In this document: positions 4,565 to 22,833 of the stretch, piece after piece | Numbering within the stretch: position 1 is the stretch's first letter | How the letters are laid out: every line of letters starts with the position of its first letter | Virus record (IMG/VR): IMGVR_UViG_3300009285_000622 | Coordinates: 1-24,791 of that record | DNA: 24,791 nt | Strand: one strand, 5' to 3' | Origin: a virus | Made by a program: the position numbers and the translations under genes | Notes under the pieces: generated by a model | Databases searched by the model: none | What the model saw: the letters and a program-made list of their open reading frames with translations, nothing else | Told to the model about the DNA's origin: nothing

Positions 4565-4924
4565 TTATTTTATTAACATCTTGTGTAACTGTTCTTCGTT
4601 TTCTTTAGTTTCTAAATAAAGGTGTGCGTACCTTACCAGTTGCTTAATCCGCTTTTCACCCATTGGGGGAGTACCAAGCTTAATTCCTAAATCAGTTAAA
4701 GCCCATTTAAGACCCTCTGGTGAATGATCCTCTGTCTGTGTTTTCGCATAATCAATTAAGGTTCTAATTTCAGTTTTGTAACTTTCAATTTCTGAGTGTC
4801 TGAAATCAAATAACTGTCCTATTTGTTCTACCAAAAGGATTCCCTCTGGAACAGTTATGTTTGTGGGAGTTTCTATTTTTCTTTCTTGTGGTTCATCAGC
4901 TTGGCCCGCAATTTTAATTTGCAT
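4565..4924 (-). CDS. Hypothetical helical phage protein
   Basis: This 119-aa protein has no recognised family. After a charged, probably disordered N-terminus (about 1-25), the rest looks helical, with heptad-like stretches (GILLVEQIGQLFDF, QLVRYAHLYLETKENEEQLHKML). The start ATG at 4924 overlaps the stop of the 1155-aa virion gene as TAATG. AGGAGG sits ten bases before it, inside the upstream gene's 3' end, so it has its own ribosome binding site as well as coupling. Its position between the ejection-type protein and the small 109-aa gene suggests a structural or assembly accessory role. That is inferred from position only. Confidence 0.65.
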   Translation of the reverse strand: MQIKIAGQADEPQERKIETPTNITVPEGILLVEQIGQLFDFRHSEIESYKTEIRTLIDYAKTQTEDHSPEGLKWALTDLGIKLGTPPMGEKRIKQLVRYAHLYLETKENEEQLHKMLIK

Positions 4925-8396: not shown

Positions 8397-8413
8397 AACT
8401 TTATTCTAAAGTT
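8397..8413. promoter_or_regulatory. Inverted repeat in the leader of the 1155-aa gene
   Basis: A perfect 7-base inverted repeat (AACTTTA / TAAAGTT, 3-base loop) lies between the TTGCAAACCT element and the ATG at 8391. It could form a weak hairpin near the start or an operator-like site. Confidence 0.5.
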
Positions 8414-8417
8414 TTCT

Positions 8418-8427
8418 AGGTTTGCAA
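8418..8427 (-). promoter_or_regulatory. TTGCAAACCT element, copy 1
   Basis: This is an exact TTGCAAACCT on the minus strand. It comes three bases after the stop of the 406-aa gene, and its downstream edge is 27 bases from the next ATG (8391). It is identical to the copies at 9677-9686 and 22824-22833. The next start lacks a Shine-Dalgarno. TTGCAA could serve as a -35-like box (inference). Confidence 0.7.
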
Positions 8428-8429
8428 AA

Positions 8430-9650
8430 TTAGAAGATAGGAGCTAATGGTGAAAGTAGACTAAGTTCTTCTTTTTTTGCAGGTGTTGTTATGCCAGTGT
8501 AAGTTGGAGTCGTATTTGTTGCACCACCAGAAACGGAATATGCCGAAGTAGGTGATGTAGTTGTCTGATTAAGCATAGTATTTACAGCACCCTGTCCACC
8601 ACTCGCAAGCTGTTCATTGTATGCCATTGCCTGCTGTAAGGCCAATTCAGACTGTTGTTTTTGTTGTTGTAATGCCGCATTTGTTTGTACCGTCGCCAGA
8701 TTGATTTGAAAGACTTGGTTTCTTAAATCTTGCAAGGCCTGCAACCTCATCGAGGACTTATTTTGCCCAGCTTGTTCTTTCATGTTTTGGATTTCAGCCA
8801 TCTTTTCATCAAAAGATCTCCTTGTCTCATTTAATGCCTGGTTTTTTTGTGTTTCAAGGCTAAAAAGAGAGGATTCATATCTGTCATTAAGATTTGCCTG
8901 GAGATCGGTTATTTTTGATAATGCTGTCTGATATGCCTGTTGGGTTGTTGCCTGGCTTCTTTGGTATTCTCTTCCTGTTAACTCATTATATGCTTCTCCC
9001 GCTGATGACGCGCCACCAAATCTCTGTTGTCCGCCCATTTGAAGCTCATTGTAAAGTCTTCTACTTGCCGCCAATGCGTTTTCTTTAGCAGTGCCCGCTT
9101 CTGTTCCAGATTGTGTTAGTTGTCTTTCACCCACAGTTTTCTCTGTTCCAAGATTTTGTTTAGTTGCTTCATATTGACCCGTTATGTCTTTTTCTACTGT
9201 TGGCTGATTGGCCCTTATTGCTCCCTCGTAAGCTCCTATCCCCGACATGGCAGAACTATAAATCGTATCAATTTCCCTCATTATAGCGGCCATCGGATCT
9301 TCTTGTTGTTCTTGGGGTTGTTGTGGAGTTCCTCCACCCCCACCCCCCCCTCCACCACCAGGTGTACTTGGCACATTTGAAGTTTGAGACCCTAAAACTA
9401 GGCCACCAGTATTTTTGACTGTACTAACAGCTTGTCTCTGTGCTGGTGTAGATGAAAGACCGTAATTTATACCACCAGGATATGATGGACTTGTGGGTGT
9501 TGCTGGTACATTATATCCATAAACCCTAGAAGCTGGAACACCAGTAAGGGATTTGTTTACATCTCCCGGGAACAAATTTACATTTTGAAGTCCTAAAGCA
9601 CTCTTAATGCTGTAAAGCCCACCCGCTAGTATATCTCCAAAACTTGCCAT
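8430..9650 (-). CDS. Coiled-coil virion protein with polyglycine linker
   Basis: This 406-aa protein has three parts. The N-terminal domain (1-100) is rich in Gly, Ser, Thr and Pro, then a run of ten glycines and a PQQPQEQQEDP linker. A long helical coiled coil follows (about 115-345, rich in Gln, Glu, Ala and Lys). A low-complexity Thr/Ser tail ends the protein. It resembles internal or ejection-associated virion proteins by position, between the nozzle and the 1155-aa protein, and by composition, but has no specific family motif. The glycine run is encoded by C-rich sequence with an 8-base homopolymer (9343-9350), which may slip. The start ATG at 9650 has no Shine-Dalgarno and is preceded by the TTGCAAACCT element. 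Confidence 0.65.
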   Translation of the reverse strand: MASFGDILAGGLYSIKSALGLQNVNLFPGDVNKSLTGVPASRVYGYNVPATPTSPSYPGGINYGLSSTPAQRQAVSTVKNTGGLVLGSQTSNVPSTPGGGGGGGGGGTPQQPQEQQEDPMAAIMREIDTIYSSAMSGIGAYEGAIRANQPTVEKDITGQYEATKQNLGTEKTVGERQLTQSGTEAGTAKENALAASRRLYNELQMGGQQRFGGASSAGEAYNELTGREYQRSQATTQQAYQTALSKITDLQANLNDRYESSLFSLETQKNQALNETRRSFDEKMAEIQNMKEQAGQNKSSMRLQALQDLRNQVFQINLATVQTNAALQQQKQQSELALQQAMAYNEQLASGGQGAVNTMLNQTTTSPTSAYSVSGGATNTTPTYTGITTPAKKEELSLLSPLAPIF

Positions 9651-9660
9651 ACCAAAATTA

Positions 9661-9675
9661 TTAAATATGTATTAA
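9661..9675. promoter_or_regulatory. Imperfect inverted repeat in the leader of the 406-aa gene
   Basis: TTAAATA and TATTAA arms around a 2-base loop, with one bulged base, lie between the TTGCAAACCT element and the ATG at 9650. This is the same arrangement as at 8397-8413 and 22802-22816, but less perfect. Confidence 0.35.
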
Positions 9676-9676
9676 C

Positions 9677-9686
9677 AGGTTTGCAA
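9677..9686 (-). promoter_or_regulatory. TTGCAAACCT element, copy 2
   Basis: This exact copy comes one base after the TAA of the nozzle gene and 27 bases from the ATG at 9650. With TTGCAA as a -35 box and an 18-base spacer, AATAAT falls in the -10 position, seven bases before the start codon. That would predict an almost leaderless mRNA (inference). Confidence 0.7.
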
Positions 9687-9687
9687 A

Positions 9688-11631
9688 TTAAACCCTCTGT
9701 GAACTCGATAACGCACCAGAACTCTGTTGTGATGCCGTTACTTTAATACTTAGTAATTCAAAATTAGAGTTGGCTGCATCTGAAGTAACTTCTACCTGAA
9801 ATAGCCGGCACTGTTTAAAAAGAGATCCCCATTTTGTAATTTCGTCACTTACAACAACTGCAGTAGTGCTTTCCGATTGTCCCCACTTGGTTGTTCCCCA
9901 CCTGTCCATACCCCACCCCGTACTTCCTGCGGCTTCCGCCCCGGTTATTGTAAAGGATTTAATTGTTGATGTTGCCCCGGTTCTATCCTCTGCAAGTATA
10001 TTAACAGTTGTTGATCCTACTATTGCCCTAAAAAGAATATAGAAGAATTTTAAGATATAAAGGCTGGTCCAATCACCAAAAGAGTTTTTACCAGTTCTAA
10101 CAGTCTTAATTATTACTTGACCATTATCGGAATTTACAGCAGCATCAAAAGTGTAAATTACATTATCATCATAACTTCCGATAACCCATTTTTCAGATCC
10201 TGAAGAATCTATATATCTCATCATTCTTGAAACACCAAAAGGTAATTTCCACTTAGAGGCCCAACAACCCCTTTCTCTATCATAGACGATCATTTCTTTT
10301 CTGAGCGGAAAACAAAGAATATATTTATTATCGAGATAAACTGCATTGGCAGTGGAATAATCATCGTCATTCAACATATCCAAATATGGCCTAATTTTGG
10401 CCGAAACTTCATTTGTTCTTATAATGTTAAGGAAATTGGGCTCGTACCCAGTTACATAAACCCCATCGCGACCAAAATAAAATGTATCATTTTCAACTGT
10501 GGCAATTGTGTCCTGCGAAGAACAACCAACAGAGGTCGATATTGGCATATATTGGGGATCAAGAACAACAAAATTACCTATTGTGATAGTTGAAAGTTCA
10601 ACAAGATAAGAAGCCCTCTCTTTATAGACAACAATTCTGTCTGCAATCGGCTGTACTGCAATTCCTTTTATATTGTCTCCCGAATCGGGATCAACATAGA
10701 TATACCCACCGCCATACACCCAAGAAAACTTGGTATGATTAGGATATCTGCCTGAGATCATTATTTTATTCGGATCCGTGTCAGAAACACACAGCAATCT
10801 GTCCTTGTATTTGGTAATGAATTTTGATCTTACACCACCTGTATTATTGGCCAGTGGTGGTTCTATTACTTCACTTGCTGGGCTCCCGCGGTCAACATAA
10901 TTTGTAACATTTGCAGCAGTTGAAGCAAGATAAGTTTCGTCTCCCTGTGTCCCCCGATAAACCTCATATCCACCCAAAGTTGCCGCACTTGGAGCAGTCC
11001 AAAACAAATGATATTCTGTATCGGAAAGGACACTTGGCGCATCTGTTACTACATACGACGTAGTTGCGGTTGTTTGACCCCCGTTTGCACCAATAGCCAA
11101 AACTCTATATGAAACTCGGTTTGTTCCTGTTACACCTGAATAATTAGTGGCTGAAAATCCCGTAGGAGCACTAATTGTTGCAAAAACAGATAGATCAGTG
11201 CCGTCATATTCAGTAAAAGAAACATTTTCGCTTACAATATAGGTTTTACCGCCAAGTTGTTCCGTGTGCATTATTGATCCACTTGGCCAACTTTGACCAG
11301 TTATTGTATCTGAAGTTGCACCATTCTTTTTTTCCAAATAACCCTCGTCTGTCAGAGCAAGTATTTCATTTGTTGTCTCATCCGTTGATTTATAAGTTCC
11401 CAAACCACGTATTGTTCCTGTTGCACCCGCTGTGAAATAAGTTACCGTTCCCCATCTTCCTGTAGGAGTTCCTTTGCCAACAAGGATTATATTGTCGGCT
11501 TGGGCCATTTCTTCATTGTCAAGCTCTGTTGGTCTTAAAAGAAGATTTAGTCCTTTGCGAAAAGACTTCCATTCAGATTCTATTGACTTTCTCGGTTTGT
11601 AATTAACTGGTTGTGTATCATAAATTGCCAT
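9688..11631 (-). CDS. Tail nozzle / tail tubular protein B-like, with FN3 insert
   Basis: This 647-aa beta-rich protein resembles podovirus tail-nozzle or stabilisation proteins (T7 gp12-like). The N-terminus carries FRKGLNLLLRPTELDNEEMAQADNIIL (about 24-50), typical of these proteins. Repeated propeller-like strands follow: TIRGLGTY, KDRLLCVSDTDPNKIMISG, FYFGRDGVYV, NKYILCFPL and ERGCWASKW. An FN3-like domain is inserted at about 153-250 (SAPTGFSAT ... YHLFWTAPS..LGGYEVYRG). It is encoded one base after the adaptor candidate, in the usual adaptor-nozzle order, and would form the distal tail tube of the particle. There is no Shine-Dalgarno before the ATG, so coupled translation is likely. The fold call rests on motif memory. 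Confidence 0.75.
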   Translation of the reverse strand: MAIYDTQPVNYKPRKSIESEWKSFRKGLNLLLRPTELDNEEMAQADNIILVGKGTPTGRWGTVTYFTAGATGTIRGLGTYKSTDETTNEILALTDEGYLEKKNGATSDTITGQSWPSGSIMHTEQLGGKTYIVSENVSFTEYDGTDLSVFATISAPTGFSATNYSGVTGTNRVSYRVLAIGANGGQTTATTSYVVTDAPSVLSDTEYHLFWTAPSAATLGGYEVYRGTQGDETYLASTAANVTNYVDRGSPASEVIEPPLANNTGGVRSKFITKYKDRLLCVSDTDPNKIMISGRYPNHTKFSWVYGGGYIYVDPDSGDNIKGIAVQPIADRIVVYKERASYLVELSTITIGNFVVLDPQYMPISTSVGCSSQDTIATVENDTFYFGRDGVYVTGYEPNFLNIIRTNEVSAKIRPYLDMLNDDDYSTANAVYLDNKYILCFPLRKEMIVYDRERGCWASKWKLPFGVSRMMRYIDSSGSEKWVIGSYDDNVIYTFDAAVNSDNGQVIIKTVRTGKNSFGDWTSLYILKFFYILFRAIVGSTTVNILAEDRTGATSTIKSFTITGAEAAGSTGWGMDRWGTTKWGQSESTTAVVVSDEITKWGSLFKQCRLFQVEVTSDAANSNFELLSIKVTASQQSSGALSSSQRV

Positions 11632-11632
11632 A

Positions 11633-12277
11633 TCATGCTAGGTCTTTCAGTGGATTAGTGAAATTCATCATTGTCTTTCGAGGTTGGCCATCAGATCCTT
11701 TCATCTCTCGGCCCATTAGGTTGGCCAATTGAACTTCTGCCTTTCGATCTGCGATTGGAAACCTCTCATCGTTTCTGGAATAAAGAACATAACTTTCCAC
11801 TTTTCTTGACACCACTTGAGGGTCTGAAAGCTCACATACATCTGTTAGTGTAAGAAGTCCAGACGGAAATCTTTGGTAAATAACTGAAAGTGTTGCATTG
11901 GCAATTGGATTGTTAAGGATAAGGTTGTAACCCGCTGCAGGATTACCTAAAACATAAGAGAAATAATCAGCCGAATCAAGATCGTACTTTTCCTCGACTT
12001 CGTGCACAGGATAAACAGTCCAATCACCATTTGAAAAAAGTTGCGGATCCTGCATACATTCACGAAAATTTGATGGAAGCGAAACAGTTATATTATTACT
12101 TATTCCGACAAGGTACTCGTTTTTAAATTCAGATAATTGCCCCTTAGAAGAGGCATCCCACACTGATTGATCTGCATAATTTGTTCTTGTTGCAAGTTCG
12201 TCACCAATGGGCAAGGCCGCCTCTAAATCAAGGGTAGAATTTACATCTATAAGAATCGAGGATAAAGTCTTAGCCAT
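11633..12277 (-). CDS. Head-tail adaptor candidate (gp11/gp4-like)
   Basis: This 214-aa protein has a helical N-terminus (AKTLSSILIDVNSTLD), then SLPSNFRECMQDPQLFSNGDW and a C-terminal helix-rich part (RKVESYVLYSRNDERFPIADRKAEVQLANLMGREM). Proteins of this size and layout, directly before the nozzle gene, act as the adaptor that joins the portal ring to the nozzle in podoviruses. The assignment is mainly by position and general pattern. It ends one base before the nozzle start. No Shine-Dalgarno precedes its ATG at 12277. The sequence following the upstream stop (TTGAACC) only loosely resembles the TTGCAAACCT element. Confidence 0.55.
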   Translation of the reverse strand: MAKTLSSILIDVNSTLDLEAALPIGDELATRTNYADQSVWDASSKGQLSEFKNEYLVGISNNITVSLPSNFRECMQDPQLFSNGDWTVYPVHEVEEKYDLDSADYFSYVLGNPAAGYNLILNNPIANATLSVIYQRFPSGLLTLTDVCELSDPQVVSRKVESYVLYSRNDERFPIADRKAEVQLANLMGREMKGSDGQPRKTMMNFTNPLKDLA

Positions 12278-12296
12278 AAATCAATAATAGAAAGGT

Positions 12297-12950
12297 TCAA
12301 AGGAGGTTAGCAACTTGGGCCCAATCCCTGTTCGGTGCTAAACATCCTGAAGCTAGGTGTGTAGCAAAAGACGGCACAGAGCACCACAATTGGGCAGATT
12401 TATTAAGTTCGGTAAACATTTCGTGGTCTGACACTCCGAACCTCCTCATCATTTCTATATTTTGCTTTAAGACTTCATTTCTGATCGCAAATGTGTGTGT
12501 ATTTGACGGGCAAGTACGATAAGTTTGTGTACCAATCAACTTAATCTCAAATTTGTGGTCGAATCTATCCTCTATGTAATGGGCGGGGTGATCGTAGGGA
12601 GACAACACAGACAATGTTTCGAGTGCTTTTTCGATTAGGGTAATTGTATTGTCTACCCAAAGGTAGTCGTCCTCAATAAACAAGATGTTGTCATCCATCT
12701 TTATCGCCACATCATAGGCCGTTAATAGTGAAGCATTTTTATTATGCGCATTTATCTCAACCACTTCTCCATATTCCCCAAAGGTTTTTCCCCAATCACA
12801 TGAATCTATTATGTAAGTAGTTTTATAGAGATTGCCTCCAGCTTTTAAAAAAGACTTATGGCACATCTCAACCAACTTCCACTTATCACCAGGAAAGAAA
12901 ACAGGGAGGTTGTCGGGTTTAAATGGTGAGATACGGTAAATTATTTGCAT
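12297..12950 (-). CDS. Glycosyltransferase-like protein with EDD motif
   Basis: This 217-aa cytosolic protein looks like a GT-A glycosyltransferase. It has an N-terminal MQIIYRISPF strand, a KTTYIIDSCD segment, NASLLTAYDVAIKMDDNILFIEDDY with E93-D94-D95 as the DXD motif, and a C-terminal region with FAIRNEVLKQNIEMMRRF and HLASGCLAP. This pattern is seen in phage and environmental glycosyltransferases without known specificity. It is the last gene of the central sugar block, directly before the adaptor gene. The plus-strand HNH gene separates it from the upstream glycosyltransferase at 13449-14006. A TATAAT box on the minus strand (12969-12974) may let it be transcribed independently. Confidence 0.72.
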   Translation of the reverse strand: MQIIYRISPFKPDNLPVFFPGDKWKLVEMCHKSFLKAGGNLYKTTYIIDSCDWGKTFGEYGEVVEINAHNKNASLLTAYDVAIKMDDNILFIEDDYLWVDNTITLIEKALETLSVLSPYDHPAHYIEDRFDHKFEIKLIGTQTYRTCPSNTHTFAIRNEVLKQNIEMMRRFGVSDHEMFTELNKSAQLWCSVPSFATHLASGCLAPNRDWAQVANLL

Positions 12951-12973
12951 TTAATCTATAATTAGGGTATTAT
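12945..12973 (+). promoter_or_regulatory. Possible promoter for the plus-strand HNH gene
   Basis: TTGCAT (12945-12950), a 17-base spacer and TATTAT (12968-12973) read on the plus strand. The -10 ends seven bases before the HNH ATG, so a transcript would be leaderless or nearly so. The -35 match is weak. Confidence 0.4.
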
Positions 12974-12998
12974 ACTGACAATGCTAAAGGTGTGTGAA
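12969..12998 (-). promoter_or_regulatory. Possible promoter for the glycosyltransferase at 12297-12950
   Basis: On the minus strand TTCACA (12993-12998), an 18-base spacer and a perfect TATAAT (12969-12974) lie 19 bases before the ATG at 12950. It sits inside the 5' end of the opposing HNH gene and overlaps that gene's own -10 region, so the two promoters would compete. Confidence 0.45.
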
Positions 12999-13499
12999 TG
13001 TTGTCGCCAATATTATACCCCAGGTAAGTTTCTTTTCAAAAGACAAAGGTATTGTCAGGAGTGTATTAAGGATGGGGTGGCACGAAAATTATCCATTAAA
13101 AAATATGATGTTTCAGAGAAAGGGAAACTTAAGAAAAAGGGTTGGATAGAAAGAAACAGAGACAGAGTAAGAGCTATTAAACAAAAATATGCCAACTCGA
13201 CAAAAGGAAAACTCCACAAAAAAGAATACCGCATAAAAACAAGGGAACACCGCCACGAATATATGAAAAAGTATTGGAGGGAAACTAAATCAAGAACAAT
13301 CGCTCATAACAAATACCGACGGCTATTTCCAAATCCGAAGTGTAGTGAGTGCAATTTGGAAGAAGACGTTCACATTCACCACAAAGACTTCAATGTATTT
13401 AACAACGATATAGAAAATCTTATTCCCCTTTGTTGTTCTTGCCACTTACTACTTCACAAATGGGTCAAAAATATCCCGCCCATACATACTCACAAATAA
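12981..13499 (+). CDS. HNH endonuclease on the opposite strand
   Basis: This 172-aa protein is the only convincing plus-strand gene. It has an N-terminal zinc-ribbon-like module (C5-E-C-C8 ... C25-Q-E-C28), then a basic linker with two related S-x-KGKL-x-KK repeats (about 45-82) of the kind seen in phage homing endonucleases. A C-terminal HNH domain follows, with CSEC (121-124), HIHHKDF (131-137), N141/N142 and CCSCH (151-155). It would nick or cut DNA and spread as a selfish gene. Its last 51 bases overlap, antisense, the 3' end of the glycosyltransferase at 13449-14006. No Shine-Dalgarno is present; the -10-like box abuts the ATG. Confidence 0.87.
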   Translation: MLKVCECCRQYYTPGKFLFKRQRYCQECIKDGVARKLSIKKYDVSEKGKLKKKGWIERNRDRVRAIKQKYANSTKGKLHKKEYRIKTREHRHEYMKKYWRETKSRTIAHNKYRRLFPNPKCSECNLEEDVHIHHKDFNVFNNDIENLIPLCCSCHLLLHKWVKNIPPIHTHK

Positions 13500-14006
13500 G
13501 TCTCTATCGTGGTTCTCCGTCGCCCCCTTAAAATGCTTTAATGTTCTTGCTGGTTCAGGGTGCTTTACGTTCACGTTTGGGTTTATGTGGACATCAACTC
13601 CCGCATTCCGTAATCGCATCGCATACTGGGTATCTGCGTAATAGACTTCAAACCTCTCATCAAAAGGCCCTATCTTTTCCCAAATGTTTCTAGGTAAAGC
13701 AAATATGTGAGCGTGGAAGACTTTGAAAACACCATTATTAACCATTGGTGAAACCACAGCATTTTCCATACAAAGCATATCTAGGGTTCCCCTCTCTAAA
13801 ATAATGTCATCGTTTGATAGAATCACAAATTCTGCGCCCATTCCAAAAGACATTTCAAGACACATGTTCCATGCTCCGGGCAATGTTTTCTGTTTACCAG
13901 CCAAGATAAGAAGATTATCATGGCCCTTTAATGAATTAATACACTTTTGTAACACCTCTCGCTTACCAGGATCACACTCATAATAAGGAATTGCTACCGT
14001 TATCAT
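13449..14006 (-). CDS. Family 2 glycosyltransferase
   Basis: This 185-aa compact GT2 enzyme starts with MITVAIPYYE. It has PGAWNMCLEM (43-52), the metal-binding N65-D66-D67 in VILSNDDI, FHAHIFALPRNIWEKIGPFDERF (the usual conserved acceptor-domain segment) and YYADTQYAMRLRNAG. The layout resembles short rhamnosyltransferase-type GT2 proteins. It overlaps the cytidylyltransferase-like gene upstream (ATGA), so the two are probably co-translated. Its 3' end is overlapped by the opposing HNH gene, and the C-terminus may have been altered by that insertion. Donor sugar is unknown. Confidence 0.83.
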   Translation of the reverse strand: MITVAIPYYECDPGKREVLQKCINSLKGHDNLLILAGKQKTLPGAWNMCLEMSFGMGAEFVILSNDDIILERGTLDMLCMENAVVSPMVNNGVFKVFHAHIFALPRNIWEKIGPFDERFEVYYADTQYAMRLRNAGVDVHINPNVNVKHPEPARTLKHFKGATENHDRDLFVSMYGRDIFDPFVK

Positions 14007-14446
14007 ACAGTTCTAACTTTTTCTTTAATTTGTGTTGAGGAAATTGGTAAATGTCTCGGTACATAAGTAAGTGCTATTCTTTGTTCCTCCAACCATTGAG
14101 GAGTAAAACCCATTTGCGCGCAATAGTCTTTCATAAGCCAATCAGAACCAACAACTATCACGTCGGGCTTAACCTCCATTATCGCAGACTTGCTATCTTC
14201 CCCACCTGTATTTTCAATAACTTTTGTAACCAACGAAGCAAAAGCTTCCAGCATTGCCTTACGATCTTCATAAGAAACAATGGGAGGCTTTCCCTTAAAG
14301 CGTTCTATAAAATCATCTGTATTCAATGCAATAATAACCTCTCCCTCCGGTCCCGCAATCTTTCTACACCACTCCAAAAGGTCAAGATGGCCACGATGAA
14401 CCATATCAAAAGTCCCCCCACTATATACTCTAAGTTGATCTTTCAT
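14003..14446 (-). CDS. Cytidylyltransferase-like nucleotidyltransferase (TagD/RfaE-type)
   Basis: This 147-aa protein of the nucleotidyltransferase alpha/beta phosphodiesterase superfamily has GGTFDMVHRGH (10-20) with the H17-x-G-H20 motif that holds the triphosphate, a central strand DVIVVGSDW (95-103) and ISSTQI (135-140) as the C-terminal signature. The family activates small phosphates, such as glycerol-3-P to CDP-glycerol (TagD) or heptose-1-P (RfaE/HldE domain). The exact substrate cannot be read. Its length fits a single-domain enzyme. It overlaps the downstream GT2 (ATGA) and the upstream 47-aa gene (17 bases), so it probably makes a donor used by these glycosyltransferases. Confidence 0.82.
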   Translation of the reverse strand: MKDQLRVYSGGTFDMVHRGHLDLLEWCRKIAGPEGEVIIALNTDDFIERFKGKPPIVSYEDRKAMLEAFASLVTKVIENTGGEDSKSAIMEVKPDVIVVGSDWLMKDYCAQMGFTPQWLEEQRIALTYVPRHLPISSTQIKEKVRTV

Positions 14447-14573
14447 TTCTTTTTTTAGACCTGACTATTTTGGTGCCATACTTCTTTGCCCATTTTTTAG
14501 CCAATTTAGGAAGTTTGGCAAACATATATTTTCTTTGTCTGATTGACTTGAATGGAATAATACTCACCCCCAT
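14430..14573 (-). CDS. Small basic phage protein (47 aa)
   Basis: This short frame runs from ATG 14573 to TAG. It overlaps the end of the 505-aa glycosyltransferase by 10 bases and the start of the cytidylyltransferase by 17. The product begins MGVSIIPFKSIRQRKYMF and continues with AKLPKLAKKWAKKYG, ending in a lysine/arginine-rich tail. The pattern PFKS..Q..YMF...P..A..WA resembles tiny phage proteins often found as 'PF.SKAQ.RYMF' peptides of unknown role. It fits the gap between two coupled genes exactly, which supports it being real. No Shine-Dalgarno is obvious; a GTG at 14567 is an alternative start. Confidence 0.6.
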   Translation of the reverse strand: MGVSIIPFKSIRQRKYMFAKLPKLAKKWAKKYGTKIVRSKKRNERST

Positions 14574-16081
14574 TTTTTAACAATTTCTTCCGTATGATCT
14601 GTAATCCACTTGGAACAATCCTCATCTTTAATCTTCTTTGGCACCTCAAATTTCAAGTGGATACTCTCATCTAACTTTATATCTCTTATAGTAGGAAGTT
14701 TTCCACTTTCCATTTGTTTAGTAAACCATTTATACCTTGGGGGGTTTAGTGCCCGCTCCCTTTTAACTATATTTTCTGGTGTTCCTTTGATTTCTGGCCA
14801 CAAGTTTATACACCTTGCTATATTGGTATCATCAACTACTATTTTTGATTCTAGAGACAGTGCGCGGGAGGCAATTTCTGTATTATCATATCCAAGTCCA
14901 TCATCAAAGAATTCCCACCAACCATTGAGTTTCTCAATTACTTTCTTTGGAATTGCTCCGTAGTCCATTTCAAAATCAAAGGGGTTGTCAGAATATCTTA
15001 TTCCCTCGTTTAATACTCTTGCGTTAGTCCATGATTTTGTTGTTAGGATCTTGGTTTCACCATTCCACCAATCTTCCTTATTATCCTTATCGGCAGGTAA
15101 GGCATTGTAATAAACATCAACGGGTGCAATTAAATCATTCAGATGATGACGATAAAGGTCAACTAAGTTTTCAATTCCACTTGCCGGCATTAGAACAAAA
15201 TCCTGTAACCACACAAGCAATTCTCCACCAGCCTTTTGCCAAGCTATATTATTAGCTCTCACTAAAGCGCACCTACGATTGTATTTATCTTTATCCCCCC
15301 TTAAATACTTTATGTCGAGATTGTACTTTTCAGCATATTTTTCAGCAGTCTTAACCCGATCTTCCTGGTAATCATCAACTATGATCCATTCAAAATTTTT
15401 ATAAGTTTGGATTGAAAGGTTATGGGACATAATGTTCCACCATCCACTCCTTATCGTGGGAGTTATCACTGTAACTCTTGGAGTGCTAATTGGTTGTTTA
15501 AATACATTAACCCATTCTTTCGCTATATTCCGCCATGCAAACTTTTTAGCGAATTTCCTAGCCTTAATAGATTCTTTTCTCCAAAGTTTTCTATTGCCCA
15601 TCATTTCAATGAGTTTTTCTTTATACTGTTCCATTACTTTAGGATCTTTAATGTCTCCATTAAGCGACACCCCGGCCCCCACCGTCTCATGTAGGGCCGC
15701 CAGGTCCATTGTAACAGGCACCAACCCATCATACTGGCAATCTAGTGCTGTAATGCAATTAATTTCTGTAAAATAGGTGGGGTAAGCCCAAATCCCGCAT
15801 TGTTTTCTAACTTCGGCCAATTCTTTCTTTCCAAGTCTCCCATGATCTATGATTCCAGGGTGTTGCATCATTATCATAACTGAAGCTTTCCATTGTCTGC
15901 GCTCTGGATTAGTTTTGGCTAGTTGGTCAAATAACTTCCAACCGTAACATACGTGAAATTGTGCATCGGGGTAAACCTTTTTAATGTCTGGCCAGATATA
16001 AAGAAGCATTTCCAAACCTCTGTCTGGCGAACTTCCGTAAAATAATCTATGTTGACGTGACGTGTTTGTGTTAAATTCCAT
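14564..16081 (-). CDS. GT4 C-terminal half fused to a family 2 glycosyltransferase
   Basis: This is a 505-aa two-domain protein. Residues 1-195 are the donor-binding C-terminal half of a GT4 (GT-B) enzyme: RLFYGSSPDRGLEMLL (12-27), YPDAQFHVCYGW (37-48) and an E106-x7-D114 version of the E-x7-E nucleotide-sugar motif. Its N-terminal half is missing here but forms the end of the upstream gene. Residues 200 to about 430 are a GT2-like domain (RVTVITPTIRSG, then EWIIVDDY). Its DXD site reads L-Q-D, so it may be weak or atypical. The ATG at 16081 overlaps the upstream TAA in the +1 frame and has GAGG nine bases before it. It probably acts together with the upstream protein. Confidence 0.8.
   Translation of the reverse strand: MEFNTNTSRQHRLFYGSSPDRGLEMLLYIWPDIKKVYPDAQFHVCYGWKLFDQLAKTNPERRQWKASVMIMMQHPGIIDHGRLGKKELAEVRKQCGIWAYPTYFTEINCITALDCQYDGLVPVTMDLAALHETVGAGVSLNGDIKDPKVMEQYKEKLIEMMGNRKLWRKESIKARKFAKKFAWRNIAKEWVNVFKQPISTPRVTVITPTIRSGWWNIMSHNLSIQTYKNFEWIIVDDYQEDRVKTAEKYAEKYNLDIKYLRGDKDKYNRRCALVRANNIAWQKAGGELLVWLQDFVLMPASGIENLVDLYRHHLNDLIAPVDVYYNALPADKDNKEDWWNGETKILTTKSWTNARVLNEGIRYSDNPFDFEMDYGAIPKKVIEKLNGWWEFFDDGLGYDNTEIASRALSLESKIVVDDTNIARCINLWPEIKGTPENIVKRERALNPPRYKWFTKQMESGKLPTIRDIKLDESIHLKFEVPKKIKDEDCSKWITDHTEEIVKKWG
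16071..16081 (-). other. Frame junction inside a split GT4 glycosyltransferase
   Basis: The message reads AAT GGA ATT TAA C. The upstream frame stops at TAA (16073-16071), while ATG (16081-16079) opens the +1 frame. Skipping one base after ATT gives ...SNGI-NTNTSRQ...RLFYGSSPDRG, a continuous GT4 sequence. This may be coupled reinitiation, a programmed +1 shift, a mutation or a sequence error. Confidence 0.7.
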
Positions 16082-17852
16082 TACTTACTACCTCAAATTT
16101 TTCCCTAGGAATACCCACACCTAATCTTCTTTGGTATTCCGATTTAACCATTATTTTGTCTATTGAATCTAATTTATCTAAATAAGACTGGGAAAACCAA
16201 ATATCGTGCAGGTCAATAAGAAATTTTTTGGTGCTCACTTTTCCAACTATACTATTATGTCTCCATTGAATAAAAATATTAAACTTGTCTCTCGAATTAA
16301 ATTTGTAGTAAGGAAGCCACAATACCCCGTTATAAAAACCCTCTTCTTTTCCAGGATCTCCATATACAGTAACTTTATATCCCATTTCCTGCCAATAATT
16401 AGACAAATAAATAACGGCGGTCTCACTTCCACCAATACCCTTTTCTAAACTCCGTGGACTCCATTTTTCGAAATGTTCTGTCCCAAAACTCGCTAAATAG
16501 CAAATTTCATCATCTTTCCATATTCTTGGTTCTTTGTATCGGTTGTATAATTTAACCATAAACGGCAAATCTTTAATCGAGTCGACAAAATTCTCTATTG
16601 TAGGAGCGATAAGGTCTTCTCTGTTGATGTCTTTGTAATAGCTAAGTAATTTATGAGCGTGTTCTGTGGCAACGTCCAATTCCTTATTATCAAAAAGGAC
16701 TAATTCATTATTCTTATTATTGGGTGTTGGGTTAACTTTATTTAAAAGTCTTGCGGCTTCCCATGCTTTCCGCACATTCCTATCTCCATGTAAATAATAA
16801 TCAAGCATTAGTTCAGCACCCAAAACCTTTAATTCTAAAATATTATCCATTTGTGCATTGGCCGTGCTTAATTCCATAGACATTCCTATCTTTAACCAGT
16901 GTTTGAGCGCAGACCAATTTTCCAAATTCCGATAAGCCCTGGCCAGGTGAAGATAAAGCAAGGGATCATAAGGAAATTCTTTCAATGCGTTCATTAAAAG
17001 ATCTCTTGAGTCTTCATGTTGCCCAAAGTGCCCCATACAAGTTGCCATTAATTTATAACAAATCGCTCTTTCTTCATCCCAACCACTTTTTAAAAGGTAT
17101 TCTTTTCCCATTTCTATACATTGAAGTAAATCTCTATCGTTTTGATATTCCGTATAAATTTTCATCAGATAGAGTAGCGTTCTGGGGTCAGCTTCACCAT
17201 TTTTTCTCTCGTCTTCAAGATCTAACTCAAGCAATCGTCTATTCCTGTCTGTGCGTTTTTCTATAACTTCTTTTGATTGGTTTCTGTCGGCCCCTAAGTG
17301 TAACCAAACAATAGGATTTTCTTTGCTATAATCTATTTTTGAGTGGACAAATTTTTCCCCATCTATAGGCACAGGACTTTCGTGTAATCTTTTTTTCCAA
17401 ACGATTCTTCCATTTCTAAGCAATCTTTCTCTTACTTGTGCCAGCTCTACCTCTTTGAAATTTTCAATGGATGGTTTACCGTCAAATTTGGCCCCATACC
17501 AATAAGTAAAGAAAACAGCATCGCTTTCTCCTCTTTTGGCTTTCTCTGCAAAACCCCTAATTAGTTGTGGGTTTATAATTACATCGTCTGAATCAGCCCA
17601 ACATATATAATCGGTGCCTTTGGGAACTCTTGCAAAATTGAAGTTGCGTTGTACAGAAAAATCGTCGCTCCATTTAAGATAAGAAAAGTCATATCCCATT
17701 TCTGTACACCATCTTTTAACTTCCGTGTAGGGTGTGTGATTGGCCGTAATATGATAGGAGTCAAACAACCCGTCTAAATTCCCAAAAAGGTGTTTTAGGT
17801 TCTCAAGTTTCTCATCACCCTCAACAATTACACAAAAGGCTAGTTTTACCAT
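16071..17852 (-). CDS. GT2 - TPR - GT4 N-terminal half multidomain glycosyltransferase
   Basis: This 593-aa protein has three parts. Residues 1-190 are a GT2-like domain with MVKLAFCVIVEGDE and the DXD site WADSDD (85-90), followed by WKKRLHES, as in SPBc2-type TPR glycosyltransferases. Residues of about 195-400 are helical TPR-like repeats (KIYTEYQNDRDLLQCIEMGKEYL, ATCMGHFGQHEDSRDLLMNALK, LHLARAYRNLENWSALKHWL). Residues 450-593 are the N-terminal half of a GT4 enzyme with GIGGSETA (473-480), YKVTVYGD and KSEYQRR ... FEVVSNGI. The GT4 fold stops abruptly where the linker to the second half should begin, and the next gene supplies that half. The start ATG overlaps the upstream stop as TGATG. 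Confidence 0.82.
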   Translation of the reverse strand: MVKLAFCVIVEGDEKLENLKHLFGNLDGLFDSYHITANHTPYTEVKRWCTEMGYDFSYLKWSDDFSVQRNFNFARVPKGTDYICWADSDDVIINPQLIRGFAEKAKRGESDAVFFTYWYGAKFDGKPSIENFKEVELAQVRERLLRNGRIVWKKRLHESPVPIDGEKFVHSKIDYSKENPIVWLHLGADRNQSKEVIEKRTDRNRRLLELDLEDERKNGEADPRTLLYLMKIYTEYQNDRDLLQCIEMGKEYLLKSGWDEERAICYKLMATCMGHFGQHEDSRDLLMNALKEFPYDPLLYLHLARAYRNLENWSALKHWLKIGMSMELSTANAQMDNILELKVLGAELMLDYYLHGDRNVRKAWEAARLLNKVNPTPNNKNNELVLFDNKELDVATEHAHKLLSYYKDINREDLIAPTIENFVDSIKDLPFMVKLYNRYKEPRIWKDDEICYLASFGTEHFEKWSPRSLEKGIGGSETAVIYLSNYWQEMGYKVTVYGDPGKEEGFYNGVLWLPYYKFNSRDKFNIFIQWRHNSIVGKVSTKKFLIDLHDIWFSQSYLDKLDSIDKIMVKSEYQRRLGVGIPREKFEVVSNGI

Positions 17853-18262
17853 CAGATTTTGTTTGCCATTCTAAATGCGGGCCATTTTTTAACCATTTTA
17901 ATACAATTTTTTCTTTCCGCAGGATCAAAACCATCAAACACCCTTTTCATCATGTTATAAATTGGCAACGGGTAAGAAGCCAAAGATCTACCCGTATGTC
18001 TATAAACCTGAGTAGTAATATCCAACTCTGCATTCTGATATTCTTTACGTTCTTTATACCAGTTTTCTCTTTGGCGAGGGTAGCCGTCTTCCCAAACCGC
18101 AATAATTATATTCATCAACTTTTCTCCATTAGTGGTAAATGGGGTCTTGGGCCGACCCAATTTTATCCACATATCAGAGATTATTCTGGCTGAGGCAACT
18201 GCCTGTGGGGGCACAATTTCATATTCATCGAAAAGTTTGCTAACTGAGGGAACTTTATCCAC
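17852..18262 (-). CDS. Hypothetical protein opening the sugar block
   Basis: This 136-aa soluble, basic protein has no family I recognise. Notable stretches are QAVASARIISDMWIKLGRPK (about 20-39), KLMNIIIAVWEDGYPRQRENWY and IYNMMKRVFDGFDPAERKNCIK. The only in-frame start before the first motifs is a GTG at 18262. No Shine-Dalgarno precedes it, and a promoter-like pair ends eight bases upstream, so the message may be leaderless. It overlaps the start of the large glycosyltransferase by one base (TGATG). Its place between the capsid terminator and the glycosyltransferases leaves open whether it is a virion protein or part of the sugar pathway. Confidence 0.6.
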   Translation of the reverse strand: MDKVPSVSKLFDEYEIVPPQAVASARIISDMWIKLGRPKTPFTTNGEKLMNIIIAVWEDGYPRQRENWYKERKEYQNAELDITTQVYRHTGRSLASYPLPIYNMMKRVFDGFDPAERKNCIKMVKKWPAFRMANKI

Positions 18263-18269
18263 TAAAGTT

Positions 18270-18298
18270 AGTATAACATTTCACACTACTTTTGTCAC
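18270..18298 (-). promoter_or_regulatory. Sigma70-like promoter after the capsid gene
   Basis: On the minus strand GTGACA (18293-18298), a 17-base spacer with TG in the extended -10 position, and TATACT (18270-18275) are present. Each box matches consensus at 5 of 6. It lies just past the capsid terminator and eight bases before the GTG at 18262, so it would drive the sugar block with little or no leader. Confidence 0.65.
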
Positions 18299-18301
18299 AC
18301 A

Positions 18302-18335
18302 AAAATCCTCCAGTTATATCAATCCGGAGGATTTT
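18302..18335 (-). terminator. Intrinsic terminator of the capsid gene
   Basis: A perfect 10-base inverted repeat (AAAATCCTCC / GGAGGATTTT, 14-base loop) starts 18 bases after the capsid stop and runs into a short T-tract on the minus strand. It separates the head module from the promoter of the sugar block. The A/T-flanked stem could also work in the plus direction. Confidence 0.8.
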
Positions 18336-18352
18336 GTTAAGAACCAATAATT

Positions 18353-19282
18353 TTAAAGACCGGATAACCACCCAGTAGTCTTTACACTTGCTCTCTCATC
18401 ATAAGAAACCAAGGTAAATTCTGTGATGTAAACACCAGCTTCAAAATCACCACTCTTTGCGCGATCTTCCCAGTGCGGTTCGCCTGTATTCACCAAGAAC
18501 GAGTGCTCAAAGTGATCTTCGCGAACAGCAAGTACAGTTAAGGTACCGTCCGTCTTGCGAACATCTTTGTGTGCCAAAACTTTGACAGTTTGACCTACCT
18601 CTGAGTCATAGACCCTTACCTCTTGGGTAAGTTTCTTGTCTGCGGCCTGAACATTCCTTGTAAGATTAGTTCCAAAGCCTGCCACACGCCTCTTAATTAC
18701 AACAGGAGCAACAACCACATCTGCGACATAGCTCGATCCGACTGCATCCCATGATGTTTGGATCATGTCGTTCAAGTCAGTTTCAGTAAATGATCTTGCT
18801 GAACCCCATGCTGTAACATTGGTAGTTATACAGTAATCAATACCAGCCATCTGTCGGGCGACACCAGAGCTACCAGCAGCAACGCCACCGTTGACTGTTG
18901 CATACTCCATTTCAGACTTTAGTCTGACAAGTGCCCTCTCTTTCTCTTTACCCAGCGCGTCTTCACCAGTAACCATAGCAATAGATGCTTTGGTTCTGGA
19001 AAGTTTAACTGGAGCATCGAGAATTACAGTATAGTTGGTTGATCTACCTTCCGCAGTCAAATCTGGATACGAAGTGTCTGCACCCTCAACTTCGGGATCT
19101 ACCGACGTAGCGCGTGCTTCATAAAACAAATTCCATTGATGCAACGGCTGCATGGCCGCAGGACCCACACCCAAATTAGAAACGAAATAATTATCCTCGT
19201 TTGGAGAGACATCTTTTAAGATGCTCAAAAGCGATTCTCTCATTTCGTTTGCTGCGTGATATGTATGTTTTCCAAAAGCCAT
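18353..19282 (-). CDS. Major capsid protein, SU10/DUF5309-like
   Basis: This HK97-fold major capsid protein candidate has 309 aa from the ATG at 19282. I prefer this start over the GTG nine bases upstream, because AGGTGA lies at proper spacing before the ATG and overlaps that GTG. Family-like features are the N-terminal helix with SLLSILKDVSPNEDNYFVSNLG, LHQWNLFYEARATS followed by EGAD, the RSTNYTVIL strand, VKLSRTKASI and the helix EKERALVRLKSEMEYATVNG. A C-terminal beta-domain includes DSEVGQTVKVLAHKDVR. It directly follows the acidic scaffold-like gene and is followed by a strong terminator, as expected for the most abundant virion protein. No cleavable pro-domain is obvious. Confidence 0.82.
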   Translation of the reverse strand: MAFGKHTYHAANEMRESLLSILKDVSPNEDNYFVSNLGVGPAAMQPLHQWNLFYEARATSVDPEVEGADTSYPDLTAEGRSTNYTVILDAPVKLSRTKASIAMVTGEDALGKEKERALVRLKSEMEYATVNGGVAAGSSGVARQMAGIDYCITTNVTAWGSARSFTETDLNDMIQTSWDAVGSSYVADVVVAPVVIKRRVAGFGTNLTRNVQAADKKLTQEVRVYDSEVGQTVKVLAHKDVRKTDGTLTVLAVREDHFEHSFLVNTGEPHWEDRAKSGDFEAGVYITEFTLVSYDERASVKTTGWLSGL

Positions 19283-19429
19283 ATTAATCACCTACTTTCT
19301 ACCTGTCTTTAACCACTTGTGGTCGTGGACAAGATAGATTTGATATAGTATTTTGTGCTCTTTTTAAGTCGGAGCATCAGACTACTATCTTATAAACAAA
19401 TAATGAAGTAAGTAATTAGGGGTTTGCAA
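19283..19429 (-). other. Long leader of the capsid gene
   Basis: This 147-base non-coding stretch lies between the scaffold stop and the capsid ATG, the longest gap in the window. It holds a TTGCAAACCC element at its upstream edge, an ACCAC/GTGGT inverted repeat with a 2-base centre (on the minus strand in CCACGACCACAAGTGG), A/T-rich sequence that could include promoter boxes, and AGGTGA before the ATG. No open frame of note. Confidence 0.55.
19420..19429 (-). promoter_or_regulatory. TTGCAAACCC element, variant copy before capsid gene
   Basis: TTGCAAACCC directly follows the TAA of the scaffold gene. It matches the other three copies at 9 of 10 bases, but here it sits 138 bases from the capsid ATG instead of 27-28. 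Confidence 0.55.
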
Positions 19430-20437: not shown

Positions 20438-20451
20438 ACTACTTTGATATA

Positions 20452-20673
20452 TTAAATCTTTCTAGTTAATAAGTCAAACAATTCATTAAGTCGCGGACCA
20501 TCCCAACTTGCGCCACAAGGACAAATAAGCATACCACGCTGGAATTTCACATTGGAATGATTACACTTATTAAAATTGATGTCCTCTTTTTCTTGTCGTG
20601 CCTCATACCTTGTTACGTCATCCGTAAAATCCAAAGGTGGCAATTTAGATCGAGTAGTTTTTTTCCGGCTCAT
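20452..20673 (-). CDS. Small zinc-binding protein
   Basis: This 73-aa protein has a zinc-ribbon-like C-terminal half. C37-N-H39 and C51-P-C53-G can hold a metal ion around FQRGML (residues by count from the ATG at 20673), followed by ASWDGPRL. The N-terminus is basic (MSRKKTTRSK). Its start overlaps the end of the possible coiled-coil gene at 20645-20839. It lies between portal and scaffold genes. Function unknown; small zinc proteins in head modules can be assembly factors. It differs in sequence from the second zinc protein at 22835-23089. Confidence 0.68.
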   Translation of the reverse strand: MSRKKTTRSKLPPLDFTDDVTRYEARQEKEDINFNKCNHSNVKFQRGMLICPCGASWDGPRLNELFDLLTRKI

Positions 20674-20839
20674 TTATTTGTTTTGTAACATTTTGAATAA
20701 TAGATTCAGCCGACTCTATAATATCAAATATTTCTTGGTAGGCTTGTGCTCTCTTTTGTACTTCAACGTATGCCTTGTGGAATTCCTTGAGGGTTTTGAA
20801 TTCCTCCGGCTGAAGCCATTTGTTCTGGAATGCCGACAC
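20645..20839 (-). CDS. Possible small coiled-coil gene overlapping the portal 3' end
   Basis: After the portal stop, another frame stays open for 39 codons down to 20645 and overlaps the next gene's start. The product LQPEEFKTLKEFHKAY ... EVQKRAQAYQEIFDIIESAESIIQNVTKQINEPE looks like a true amphipathic helix. It has no good start. GTG at 20839 is used here; ATG codons at 20953 and 21001 in the same frame lie deeper inside the portal gene. It could also be reached by a +1 shift from the portal frame near the GGAGG at about 20810. Confidence 0.35.
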   Translation of the reverse strand: MSAFQNKWLQPEEFKTLKEFHKAYVEVQKRAQAYQEIFDIIESAESIIQNVTKQINEPEKNYSI

Positions 20840-22796
20840 TAGGATTGGTTTGAGGTGCTGCTGGTAATCCTGCGATTGGCATATTCGGTATAGCGCCTGT
20901 TGTTGCTCCAGGTACACTTTGAGTTTCTGCTTTCTCGAAGTATCTATCTGCATCTCTGAGCCCAAGGTCTTCAAGTGTGCTTGTAAGGAGTTCTTTGACA
21001 TTAGGTCTAAATCCCTCTGCTGACAATAATTGTACCACACTGGGATTATTTAACAAAAGGTCTAATGCCTTTTGTCTTGCATCGAGAAGGTCCTGGCTTG
21101 CTCCTGAAGCCATACTTTTTACATCTGCGACATAATCATACAAACCGTCAAGGTCATGGGGTGTTAAAATAACTTCTGCAGAATCACCCTGTTCACTTAC
21201 TTCCATTTTGGGTTTGTAGACAAGTTTTTCAGGATTTTTTTCGTTGGGGTTGTCATAAATTGGATGCTTTGGTGTTTTACCTGCTTCAATTAAATCATTA
21301 AGTTCTGCTTCACTCATGTCGGGTCTCATTTCGACTATATCCGATATTGTTTTTGCGACTTCTGGCTCTAAAATCATTTCATCCAGACCCGCTTTCTTGA
21401 AGTAAGCAAAGTTTTCAGCTCCAACTATTTTCAAAATGTATTCTTGCTTTTTCGGATCCTTAAATAAGAATTGTCGGTTATTAGATAACCACATAAGCAT
21501 AATGTCTTTAATGAATTCTGCCAAATCATTCTGATTTTTTTGGTCACGAACATTCTGTTGTCTCAAAGAAGCCTTAACCTCTGTGGCTGTTTTGTCCGAT
21601 TCAAAAGGTGTTACAGTAGATGTTCCTTGGCTCATATCTCCCATTGCAACATTGAAAGCGGAAATTAGTGCGGAGTAGGTTGTTTCAAAATATCTAACTG
21701 CTTCACCATTACTTTGCATTTCTGTCACAGAATCAGGGCGAGTTACTATCCATTGTGCCTCTGGGCCATATTGGATTGTTTCTATCCTAACTTGACCCTC
21801 AACAATTTTAAGCGGAGGACGCTGTTTTAATATAACCTCGTCCATATACCCGCAAACTGTTGCTTGTATTGCTTTCCAAATTGGAATAACCGGCTCTACT
21901 TCACTCTCACCCAAGGCATCATCTTGAAGAGGATAATATTTTAGTTGTACCACACAAATTTTGCCATGCTCATAAGGGTTATTTATGTCTCTCATTATGA
22001 GTTTCCCTAAAGGCGAATAATCTATCCACCTGTCTTCTCTTAGTTCATGGACAACTTCCACTTCGGGATAAGCCATATCTTGTCCAGTTCTATCTTCAAT
22101 TCCACGAAGTTGTTTAACCCTACTTGGAAACTTTGTATTCTTACTAGACTTATTCATGTTTTCCCGAAGAATAGTTTTTAAAGTCCCAAGATAATTAAAC
22201 ATGGGCTTACCAGAGACATCAGTCTGCCTTTCCAAATCTTCTATCTTTTCCCAAGTTGAATATTGAAACCACTTAGCATTTTTTATGTGTTGAGCCGCTG
22301 AATCCATTCCACAATAACGGAGATCTAATGGTGTAAATTCATTTCCCTCCCATTTTATTGTCCCGTCCTCTTTGTAAATACATAACCACTTAACTATACC
22401 GAATTTTGATTGATAAAGCCTTGTATCCATATCTGAAATAGATATCTTAGTAAGCATAGAACCACCATGGTCTGCATCGTCCCACTGAAAGTCCAATAGC
22501 GCATTGTTCAATCTTGCCCCTAATACATCGTTGCCCTCTCTGGGAATAAGACGGCCCCTTAATTTATTATTAATAAGCCTGGCGTTTTTCTCGATCAGTG
22601 AGGTTCGAATTCTTGGATCAACTATTTTGGTTATATAAGGCCAATCATCGGGAAGCTTGCCATAATATGAGTCTGTTATATCATTCCAACCACCTTTTCT
22701 CGTTAGACGTATTTCGTTGTCTTGTGTCCACATTTCGTAGTGTTGGCGGACCTCTTTAAGTGTTTGTTCTTGTTTAGATAAAGCTGAATCATCCAT
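20763..22796 (-). CDS. Portal protein, P22-like
   Basis: This 677-aa protein is a candidate for the dodecameric ring through which DNA enters and leaves the head. It sits in the expected terminase-portal-scaffold-capsid order. Features in line with P22-type portals are the N-terminal helical part (SALSKQEQTLKEVRQHYEMWTQ), the wing/stem region with PLDLRYCGMDSAAQHIKNAKWF, an E-L-RED-W strand pair, and the long helix TATEVKASLRQQNVRDQKNQND with MLMWLSNNRQFLF. The C-terminus (about 590-677) is helical and then low-complexity Pro/Gly/Gln. The ATG at 22796 lacks a Shine-Dalgarno and is preceded by an inverted repeat and the TTGCAAACCT element. Confidence 0.82.
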   Translation of the reverse strand: MDDSALSKQEQTLKEVRQHYEMWTQDNEIRLTRKGGWNDITDSYYGKLPDDWPYITKIVDPRIRTSLIEKNARLINNKLRGRLIPREGNDVLGARLNNALLDFQWDDADHGGSMLTKISISDMDTRLYQSKFGIVKWLCIYKEDGTIKWEGNEFTPLDLRYCGMDSAAQHIKNAKWFQYSTWEKIEDLERQTDVSGKPMFNYLGTLKTILRENMNKSSKNTKFPSRVKQLRGIEDRTGQDMAYPEVEVVHELREDRWIDYSPLGKLIMRDINNPYEHGKICVVQLKYYPLQDDALGESEVEPVIPIWKAIQATVCGYMDEVILKQRPPLKIVEGQVRIETIQYGPEAQWIVTRPDSVTEMQSNGEAVRYFETTYSALISAFNVAMGDMSQGTSTVTPFESDKTATEVKASLRQQNVRDQKNQNDLAEFIKDIMLMWLSNNRQFLFKDPKKQEYILKIVGAENFAYFKKAGLDEMILEPEVAKTISDIVEMRPDMSEAELNDLIEAGKTPKHPIYDNPNEKNPEKLVYKPKMEVSEQGDSAEVILTPHDLDGLYDYVADVKSMASGASQDLLDARQKALDLLLNNPSVVQLLSAEGFRPNVKELLTSTLEDLGLRDADRYFEKAETQSVPGATTGAIPNMPIAGLPAAPQTNPSVGIPEQMASAGGIQNPQGIPQGIR

Positions 22797-22801
22797 ATTT
22801 A

Positions 22802-22816
22802 AAAGATTAAATCTTT
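22802..22816. promoter_or_regulatory. Inverted repeat in the portal leader
   Basis: A perfect 6-base inverted repeat (AAAGAT / ATCTTT, 3-base loop) lies between the TTGCAAACCT element and the portal ATG. TTTAAT inside it is a fair -10 box, 16 bases after TTGCAA. Confidence 0.5.
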
Positions 22817-22823
22817 GGTTGTC

Positions 22824-22833
22824 AGGTTTGCAA
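22824..22833 (-). promoter_or_regulatory. TTGCAAACCT element, copy 3 (portal)
   Basis: This exact copy comes one base after the TAG of the zinc-ribbon gene and 28 bases from the portal ATG. The placement is the same as at 8418-8427 and 9677-9686. Confidence 0.7.

Follow-up and report, generated by a model that had tools for sequence, protein, structure and literature searches.

A candidate late-promoter box and a structured capsid leader in the virion module of an uncultured phage group

What is the role of a ten-base word that recurs before virion genes at a constant distance from the start codon? The question is raised by the viral record IMGVR_UViG_3300009285_000622, of which the whole stretch of 24,791 bases, hereafter the window, was analysed. 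An earlier note had described three exact copies of TTGCAAACCT and one variant, TTGCAAACCC, and had offered two readings, a promoter giving nearly leaderless mRNAs or a translation or RNA-processing signal. Judged from its sequence, the word (the box) is very probably the -35 half of a class of late promoters by which the genes of the virion module are expressed together, with predicted leaderless mRNAs and a structured leader at the gene for the major capsid protein (MCP).

The box in the window

All four copies lie on the minus strand (exact at 8418, 9677 and 22824, variant at 19420) and precede virion genes as had been claimed, namely those for the portal, the MCP and an internal virion protein and the virion-module gene at 8430-9650. 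The word TTGCAAACCY has 4 exact matches in the window against 0.19 expected, and none of 100 shuffles reached 4. When two mismatches were tolerated the word was not enriched (38 versus 36.7 in shuffles), so only the near-exact word is special. The statement that no further copies exist holds for TTGCAAACCY, which occurs exactly four times; it fails for the near-exact word, as a copy with one mismatch, TTGCTAACCT, had been overlooked at 12304-12313. The window therefore contains five box units rather than four:

22824..22833, minus strand: box TTGCAAACCT, extended -35 of the predicted portal promoter; ATG at 22796, 37 nucleotides (nt) on
22804..22809, minus strand: -10-like hexamer TAATCT of the portal promoter, a weak match assigned by sequence and position class
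19420..19429, minus strand: box TTGCAAACCC of the predicted MCP promoter
19400..19405, minus strand: -10-like hexamer CATTAT of the MCP promoter, at offset 24 from the box as elsewhere
12304..12313, minus strand: fifth box TTGCTAACCT, exactly 36 nt before ATG 12277 and overlapping the upstream stop
12284..12289, minus strand: -10 hexamer TATTAT, at -12 to -7 of ATG 12277
9677..9686, minus strand: box TTGCAAACCT, 36 nt before ATG 9650
9657-9662, minus strand: -10-like hexamer AATAAT before ATG 9650
8418..8427, minus strand: box TTGCAAACCT, 36 nt before ATG 8391
8398-8403, minus strand: -10-like hexamer TAAAGT before ATG 8391

Measured from the first T of the box to the A of the ATG, the distance is 36 nt at 8418, 9677 and 12304 and 37 nt at 22824, which confirms the fixed spacing reported for the three exact copies. 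In shuffles of all window leaders even one box at 36-37 nt appeared in just 4 of 20,000, compared to four observed. The fifth promoter was also flagged by a sigma70 scan as TTGCTA-18-TATTAT. Inspection of the leaders bore out the absence of a Shine-Dalgarno sequence from the three genes behind exact copies. The closeness of the boxes to upstream stops was likewise reproduced, as the four copies start 0-2 bases past the stops of genes ending at 8430, 9688, 19430 and 22835; it arises because the genes are tightly packed, with gaps of 37-38 base pairs (bp) that barely fit a promoter. An AT-rich inverted repeat said to lie in each leader is clear in only two of the three leaders, and the repeat is not a shared part of the unit (6 of 49 spacers versus 2.8 in shuffles, with 29 of 500 shuffles equally high).

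The genes behind the boxes are as follows:

20763..22796, minus strand: portal protein gene, 677 amino acids (aa), predicted leaderless mRNA (phrog_1216, E 0.002, weak; full-length relatives)
18353..19282, minus strand: MCP gene of the SU10 MCP family (PF17236, E 4.9e-46; phrog_1328)
11633..12277, minus strand: virion-module gene, 214 aa, without a named family, predicted leaderless mRNA; box kept in relatives
8430..9650, minus strand: virion-module gene, 406 aa, without a named family, predicted leaderless mRNA
4924..8391, minus strand: internal virion protein gene, 1155 aa, predicted leaderless mRNA (phrog_6651, E 7.7e-22)

Conservation in relatives and promoter grammar

More than 50 related loci were obtained by IMG/VR queries with portal, MCP, structural and terminase sequences. 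Homologous leaders were compared by a test that does not presuppose the box, taking the best TTGMAAACCY match 34-43 nt upstream of any ATG that lies in frame close to the gene start. A box within two mismatches was found in 33 of 38 non-redundant portal leaders and in 14 of 17 leaders of homologues of the 11633-12277 gene, whereas shuffled leaders gave expectations of only 0.69 and 0.39, respectively; recurrence at the same places in relatives, the check that the earlier note had asked of its element, was thus observed. An exact TTGMAAACCY stands at 36-39 nt in 13 of 16 non-redundant relatives of the 11633-12277 gene. The same test on control leaders yielded 0 of 23 for terL, 0 of 15 for the scaffold gene, 1 of 15 for the homologue of gene 9688, 1 of 16 for that of 12297 and 3 of 24 for that of 17852, and a mirror-image control word showed no distance peak. 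In four long relative records, boxes stand at the portal gene, the MCP leader, the 11633 and 8430 homologues, the internal virion protein gene (where present) and tail-type genes, and none was found before replication or other early-type genes.

This distribution bears on the idea that the box is a recombination linker, a short conserved gene-boundary sequence that promotes module exchange and has no role in expression. Its location at gene ends straight after stops would suit a linker, as would the exchange of glycosyltransferase cassettes between these phages. However, the box is missing at most other boundaries of the same genomes, including those of terL and scaffold, and its position is bound to the -10 hexamer and not to the stop codon, so that we find a linker scarcely credible.

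Forty-six non-redundant boxed leaders were aligned on the start codon, which is ATG in all 46. With the A of ATG as +1, the box TTG(C/A)(A/t)AACC(T/C) covers -36 to -27, and a sigma70-type -10 (TAnnnT) is located at -12 to -7, with T-12 in 29, A-11 in 38 and T-7 in 36 of the leaders. The box-to-ATG distance is 36 nt in 24 promoters, 37 nt in 8, 38 nt in 4 and 39 nt in 7. In the common 36-nt class the -35 is TTGMAA (-36 to -31) with a spacer of 18 bp, and ACCY forms a conserved extension. Among portal leaders chosen without requiring a box, A6 is conserved in 33 of 33, C7 in 28 and C8 in 29, close to the conservation of TTG although these positions lie outside the hexamer. The subgroup L015-L020 has a perfect TATAAT, a 19-bp spacer and box-to-ATG distances of 37-41 nt. 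A Shine-Dalgarno sequence was found in 1 of 49 boxed leaders. The suggestion of a promoter with TTGCAA as the -35 and nearly leaderless mRNAs gains support from conservation at homologues, from the -10 at -12 to -7 (n = 46) and from the same -10 offset in MCP leaders. The virion messages appear to start at the start codon, except for the capsid message.

The capsid copy bears most directly on the second reading of the earlier note, a translation or RNA-processing signal, in which the mRNA would span the box and the fixed spacing would guide a ribosome or nuclease. The constant distance to the ATG and the absence of a Shine-Dalgarno sequence are in keeping with such a signal. At the MCP, however, 107-143 nt separate the box from the start of the capsid gene in relatives (138 nt in the window by the open reading frame start), the gene stands behind a normal Shine-Dalgarno sequence, and the -10 offset is nevertheless unchanged. 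When a -10 matrix derived solely from the leaderless promoters was run over 19 MCP-type leaders, its peak fell at offset 24 from the box, with a best score at offsets 23-26 of 3.52 versus a shuffled mean of 1.04, and 0 of 1000 shuffles scored as high. None of the 19 leaders has a start codon at the ATG-like offset from the box. Since the offset is kept though the MCP start is more than 100 nt away, the -10 is tied to the box rather than to the ATG, which favours a promoter. The co-conserved TAnnnT at -12 to -7 also represents DNA promoter grammar. A translation or processing signal was rejected by this offset test; the box would lie upstream of the transcript, and we consider such a signal very improbable. 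For the MCP of the window, transcription is predicted to start near 19393.

We propose that bacterial RNA polymerase with a primary-type sigma would start RNA at the ATG or 1-2 nt from it, and that the portal, the internal virion protein and the products of the 8430-9650 and 11633-12277 genes would be translated from leaderless AUG mRNAs. Before the MCP gene, this type of promoter would give rise to a leader of about 110 nt, with a conserved pseudoknot about 10 nt from the 5' end and, finally, a hairpin and a Shine-Dalgarno sequence.

Several observations weigh against this proposal. The portal box is missing in the relatives L019, L107, L108 and L111, and in L110 it sits farther upstream. The window has weak -10 hexamers, and when it was scanned for generic sigma70 promoters these were no commoner than in shuffles (56 versus 52.7). 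In addition, the search for a reader of the ACCY extension gave no Sigma70_r4 match above the cut-off in ten phage records, four of them of 36-44 kb.

Among the distant relatives (L019, L102-L104, L107, L108 and L111) the portal box is either lost or varied (TTGATAACC, TTGCAAAGT), and L111 carries GGAGG before its 11633 homologue.

The capsid leader and its pseudoknot

The predicted MCP leader contains three features:

19356..19383, minus strand: H-type pseudoknot of the MCP mRNA leader; stem 1 AGTC (19383-19380) with GACT (19370-19367), stem 2 TGCTC (19376-19372) with GAGCA (19360-19356)
19299..19337, minus strand: second hairpin, ending just upstream of the Shine-Dalgarno sequence (fold z -2.12)
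19287..19297, minus strand: MCP Shine-Dalgarno sequence AAGTAGGTGAT; relatives have AAAGGAGGTGAT

The pseudoknot reads AGTC-TGA-TGCTC-C-GACT-TAAAAA-GAGCA in the window and begins about 10 nt past the predicted MCP transcription start. Both helices, of 4 and 5 pairs, are paired in 20 of 20 sequences. Cells with changes on both sides number 25, compared to a shuffled value of 5.4, and no more than 2 remain when the partner is shifted by 1-3 columns (n = 20); covariation was also assessed on a set of 15 sequences. The predicted structure is an H-type pseudoknot, in that two interleaved helices are backed by compensatory change.

A pattern scan of 2.9 million viral contigs retrieved 24 records, 22 of which carry the element in MCP or scaffold-MCP leaders of this phage group. 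Two of these 22, L125 and L130, stop before the MCP and have the same leader; in the records L118 and L121 the match falls inside coding sequence. In most of the leaders retrieved the box lies 48-57 nt upstream of TGCTCC, and it stands 41-49 nt upstream of stem 1. A structural regular expression located the pseudoknot in further relatives, including the distant L102, L104 and L111. L019, L102, L104, L107 and L111 retain the pseudoknot despite loss or variation of the portal box, indicating that the promoter and the RNA element are separable. At this leader, neither pseudoknot nor box was present in four of the database phages nearest by MCP (26-30% identity). Rfam gave no match at E<=1 in the window, and in five relatives the leader had none at E<=10; microRNA matches in L005 (9-124) are away from the leader.

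The fold z of the leader is below -2 in 4 of 7 leaders tested and not in the other three, and second hairpins similar to that of the window occur in several relatives but not in all. The true MCP start is probably ATG 19282 instead of GTG 19291 of the open reading frame list, which falls in the Shine-Dalgarno region.

The pseudoknot probably protects or regulates the MCP mRNA. The structured leader would most likely protect the 5' end against decay and so raise or tune the output of capsid protein, or would form a regulatory site. Two points favour protection, namely the location of the knot close to the predicted 5' end and the rank of the capsid as the product made in the largest amount. A protein may instead regulate its own message here, as happens at T4 gene 32. 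The T4 gene 32 mRNA has an H-type pseudoknot in its 5' leader, upstream of the ribosome site (PMC3014915), and the element described here resembles it in type, in its place in a phage mRNA leader and in its position relative to the ribosome site. It differs in serving a capsid or scaffold-capsid gene, in its sequence, with a conserved loop A and TAAA linker, and in its nearness to the predicted 5' end.

The reader of the extension, the host and the meaning of the finding

The ACCY extension might be read by a phage-supplied factor acting with sigma, or contacted directly by sigma, the two being about equally likely. Both are versions of the promoter proposed above. In the first, a phage protein would read TTGMAAACCY in place of the -35, in the manner of MotA at T4 middle promoters, and sigma would recognize only the -10. 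The near-TTG conservation of A6, C7 and C8 points to such an activator, as does the degeneracy of the -10 hexamers in most of the clade, where the box combines with an exact TATAAT in only 2 of 12 records. The box is also confined to virion-module genes, the neighbouring gene 17852-18262 having a box-less promoter with a TG-extended -10. On the other hand, no match to a MotA-type activator (PF09158) was found in 9 records in a search without positive control, the sole activator-like protein, a Mor-family helix-turn-helix (HTH) protein, is present in one genome, and TTGMAA with 18-bp spacing is already a fair sigma70 -35 at an acceptable distance. We hold this version to be possible, somewhat short of an even chance.

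The second version, a plain host promoter whose primary sigma prefers this extended -35 so that no phage factor would be needed, seems to us just as plausible. The 18-bp spacer to a sigma70 -10 and the agreement of TTGMAA with TTGACA at 4-5 of 6 positions argue for it, together with the perfect TATAAT in some relatives. Against it, a survey of 192 genomes from the phylum of the one bacterial metagenome-assembled genome (MAG) with a relative, L093, showed no enrichment of the box with TATAAT (10 matches versus 12 for the mirrored word). The phage L093 itself has only a two-mismatch box, so this lack of enrichment does not decide the host of the window.

Other candidate readers were considered. 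A phage sigma factor was rejected on the ten records mentioned above, which had no match over the cut-off; the single weak match (G005, 16.7 bits) falls in the portal region. The Mor-family activator was rejected as the box reader, being restricted to one genome. This 66-aa HTH protein, at L084:5486-5686 of the relative G001 (PF08765, E 3.5e-6), is a possible late activator, and no homologue was found in the other long records. A promoter for a T7-like single-subunit polymerase is unlikely given the sigma70-type -10; T7-type RNA polymerase (PF00940) gave no match in 9 records, again in a search without positive control.

The MAG with L093 is a bacterial groundwater genome of 1.2 Mb from a phylum of mostly 0.5-1.4 Mb genomes, and no ribosomal L30 match was found in it; we take these features to fit Patescibacteria. 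The relative L094 lies in a bin labelled Micrarchaeota and carries sigma70-type promoters and the capsid-leader pseudoknot. L094 is likely misbinned because its promoters are of bacterial type.

Several neighbouring features of the window were also recorded. No box precedes gene 9688-11631 (virion protein, phrog_3287), whose start lies 1 nt beyond the stop of its neighbour. The box-less promoter of gene 17852-18262, GTGACA-17-TATACT at 18263-18298 on the minus strand, ends about 7 nt before the GTG start and is found in many relatives (TGCTATAAT and others); it represents a second, probably constitutive class of predicted leaderless mRNA. The region's two strongest matches to sigma70 (TTGAAA-16-TATAAT and TTCACA-18-TATAAT, both 11 of 12) lie together at 12969-13039 on the minus strand, upstream of gene 12297-12950. 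A large glycosyltransferase-like gene cassette occupies 1-4184 and 12297-17852, part of it set between the gene for the capsid and that at 11633, and relatives have other sets at the same location.

In bacteria, transcripts without a leader have been documented (PMC4633059), and among phage transcripts the leaderless type is said to be frequent (PMC5312081). The promoters described here share with a sigma70 promoter of leaderless mRNA the TTGMAA at -36 to -31, the 18-bp spacer, TAnnnT at -12 to -7 and an ATG at the predicted +1, and differ in the conserved ACCY downstream of the -35 and in their limitation to the virion module of one phage group. Similar to T4 middle promoters, they pair a host -10 with a word of about 9 bp that is particular to the phage and overlaps the -35 region. 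However, the MotA box of T4 is wwwTGCTTtA, centred at -30 (PMC2988021), compared to TTGMAAACCY centred near -32 here, so the word does not qualify as a MotA box; T4 middle promoters also require an excellent -10, whereas the -10 here is often weak, and no MotA homologue was found in the search mentioned above. No description of this box promoter or of the capsid leader was found in the open literature searched, and a comparison of the portal with 50,697 sequenced phage records gave no match. Both leaderless sigma70-type promoters and phage-specific replacements of the -35 are known in kind; for this box class and for the pseudoknot of the capsid leader no counterpart was found in Rfam or the literature searched.

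A bolder possibility, which we think rather unlikely, is a dedicated late regulon in phages of (probably) ultra-small uncultured bacteria. A phage factor would read the 9-10-bp box and give leaderless virion mRNAs, and a new, capsid-only pseudoknot family would sense capsid protein or host state, or block 5' decay, and so set capsid stoichiometry.

The proposed late-promoter grammar allows transcription starts and late operons to be called from sequence in a phage group whose portal has no match in those 50,697 records, and it points to a way in which uncultured phages of this group may turn on the genes of the virion. The pseudoknot of the MCP leader is compact, strongly covarying and not found in Rfam, at a place where structure in phage messages has rarely been documented, and its small size would suit it to direct assays of structure and decay. 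Start codons at the predicted +1 in most of the virion module, the capsid gene alone having a leader, suggest a division of labour, in which leaderless messages would supply the scarce parts of the virion and a structured leader with a Shine-Dalgarno sequence the most abundant one.

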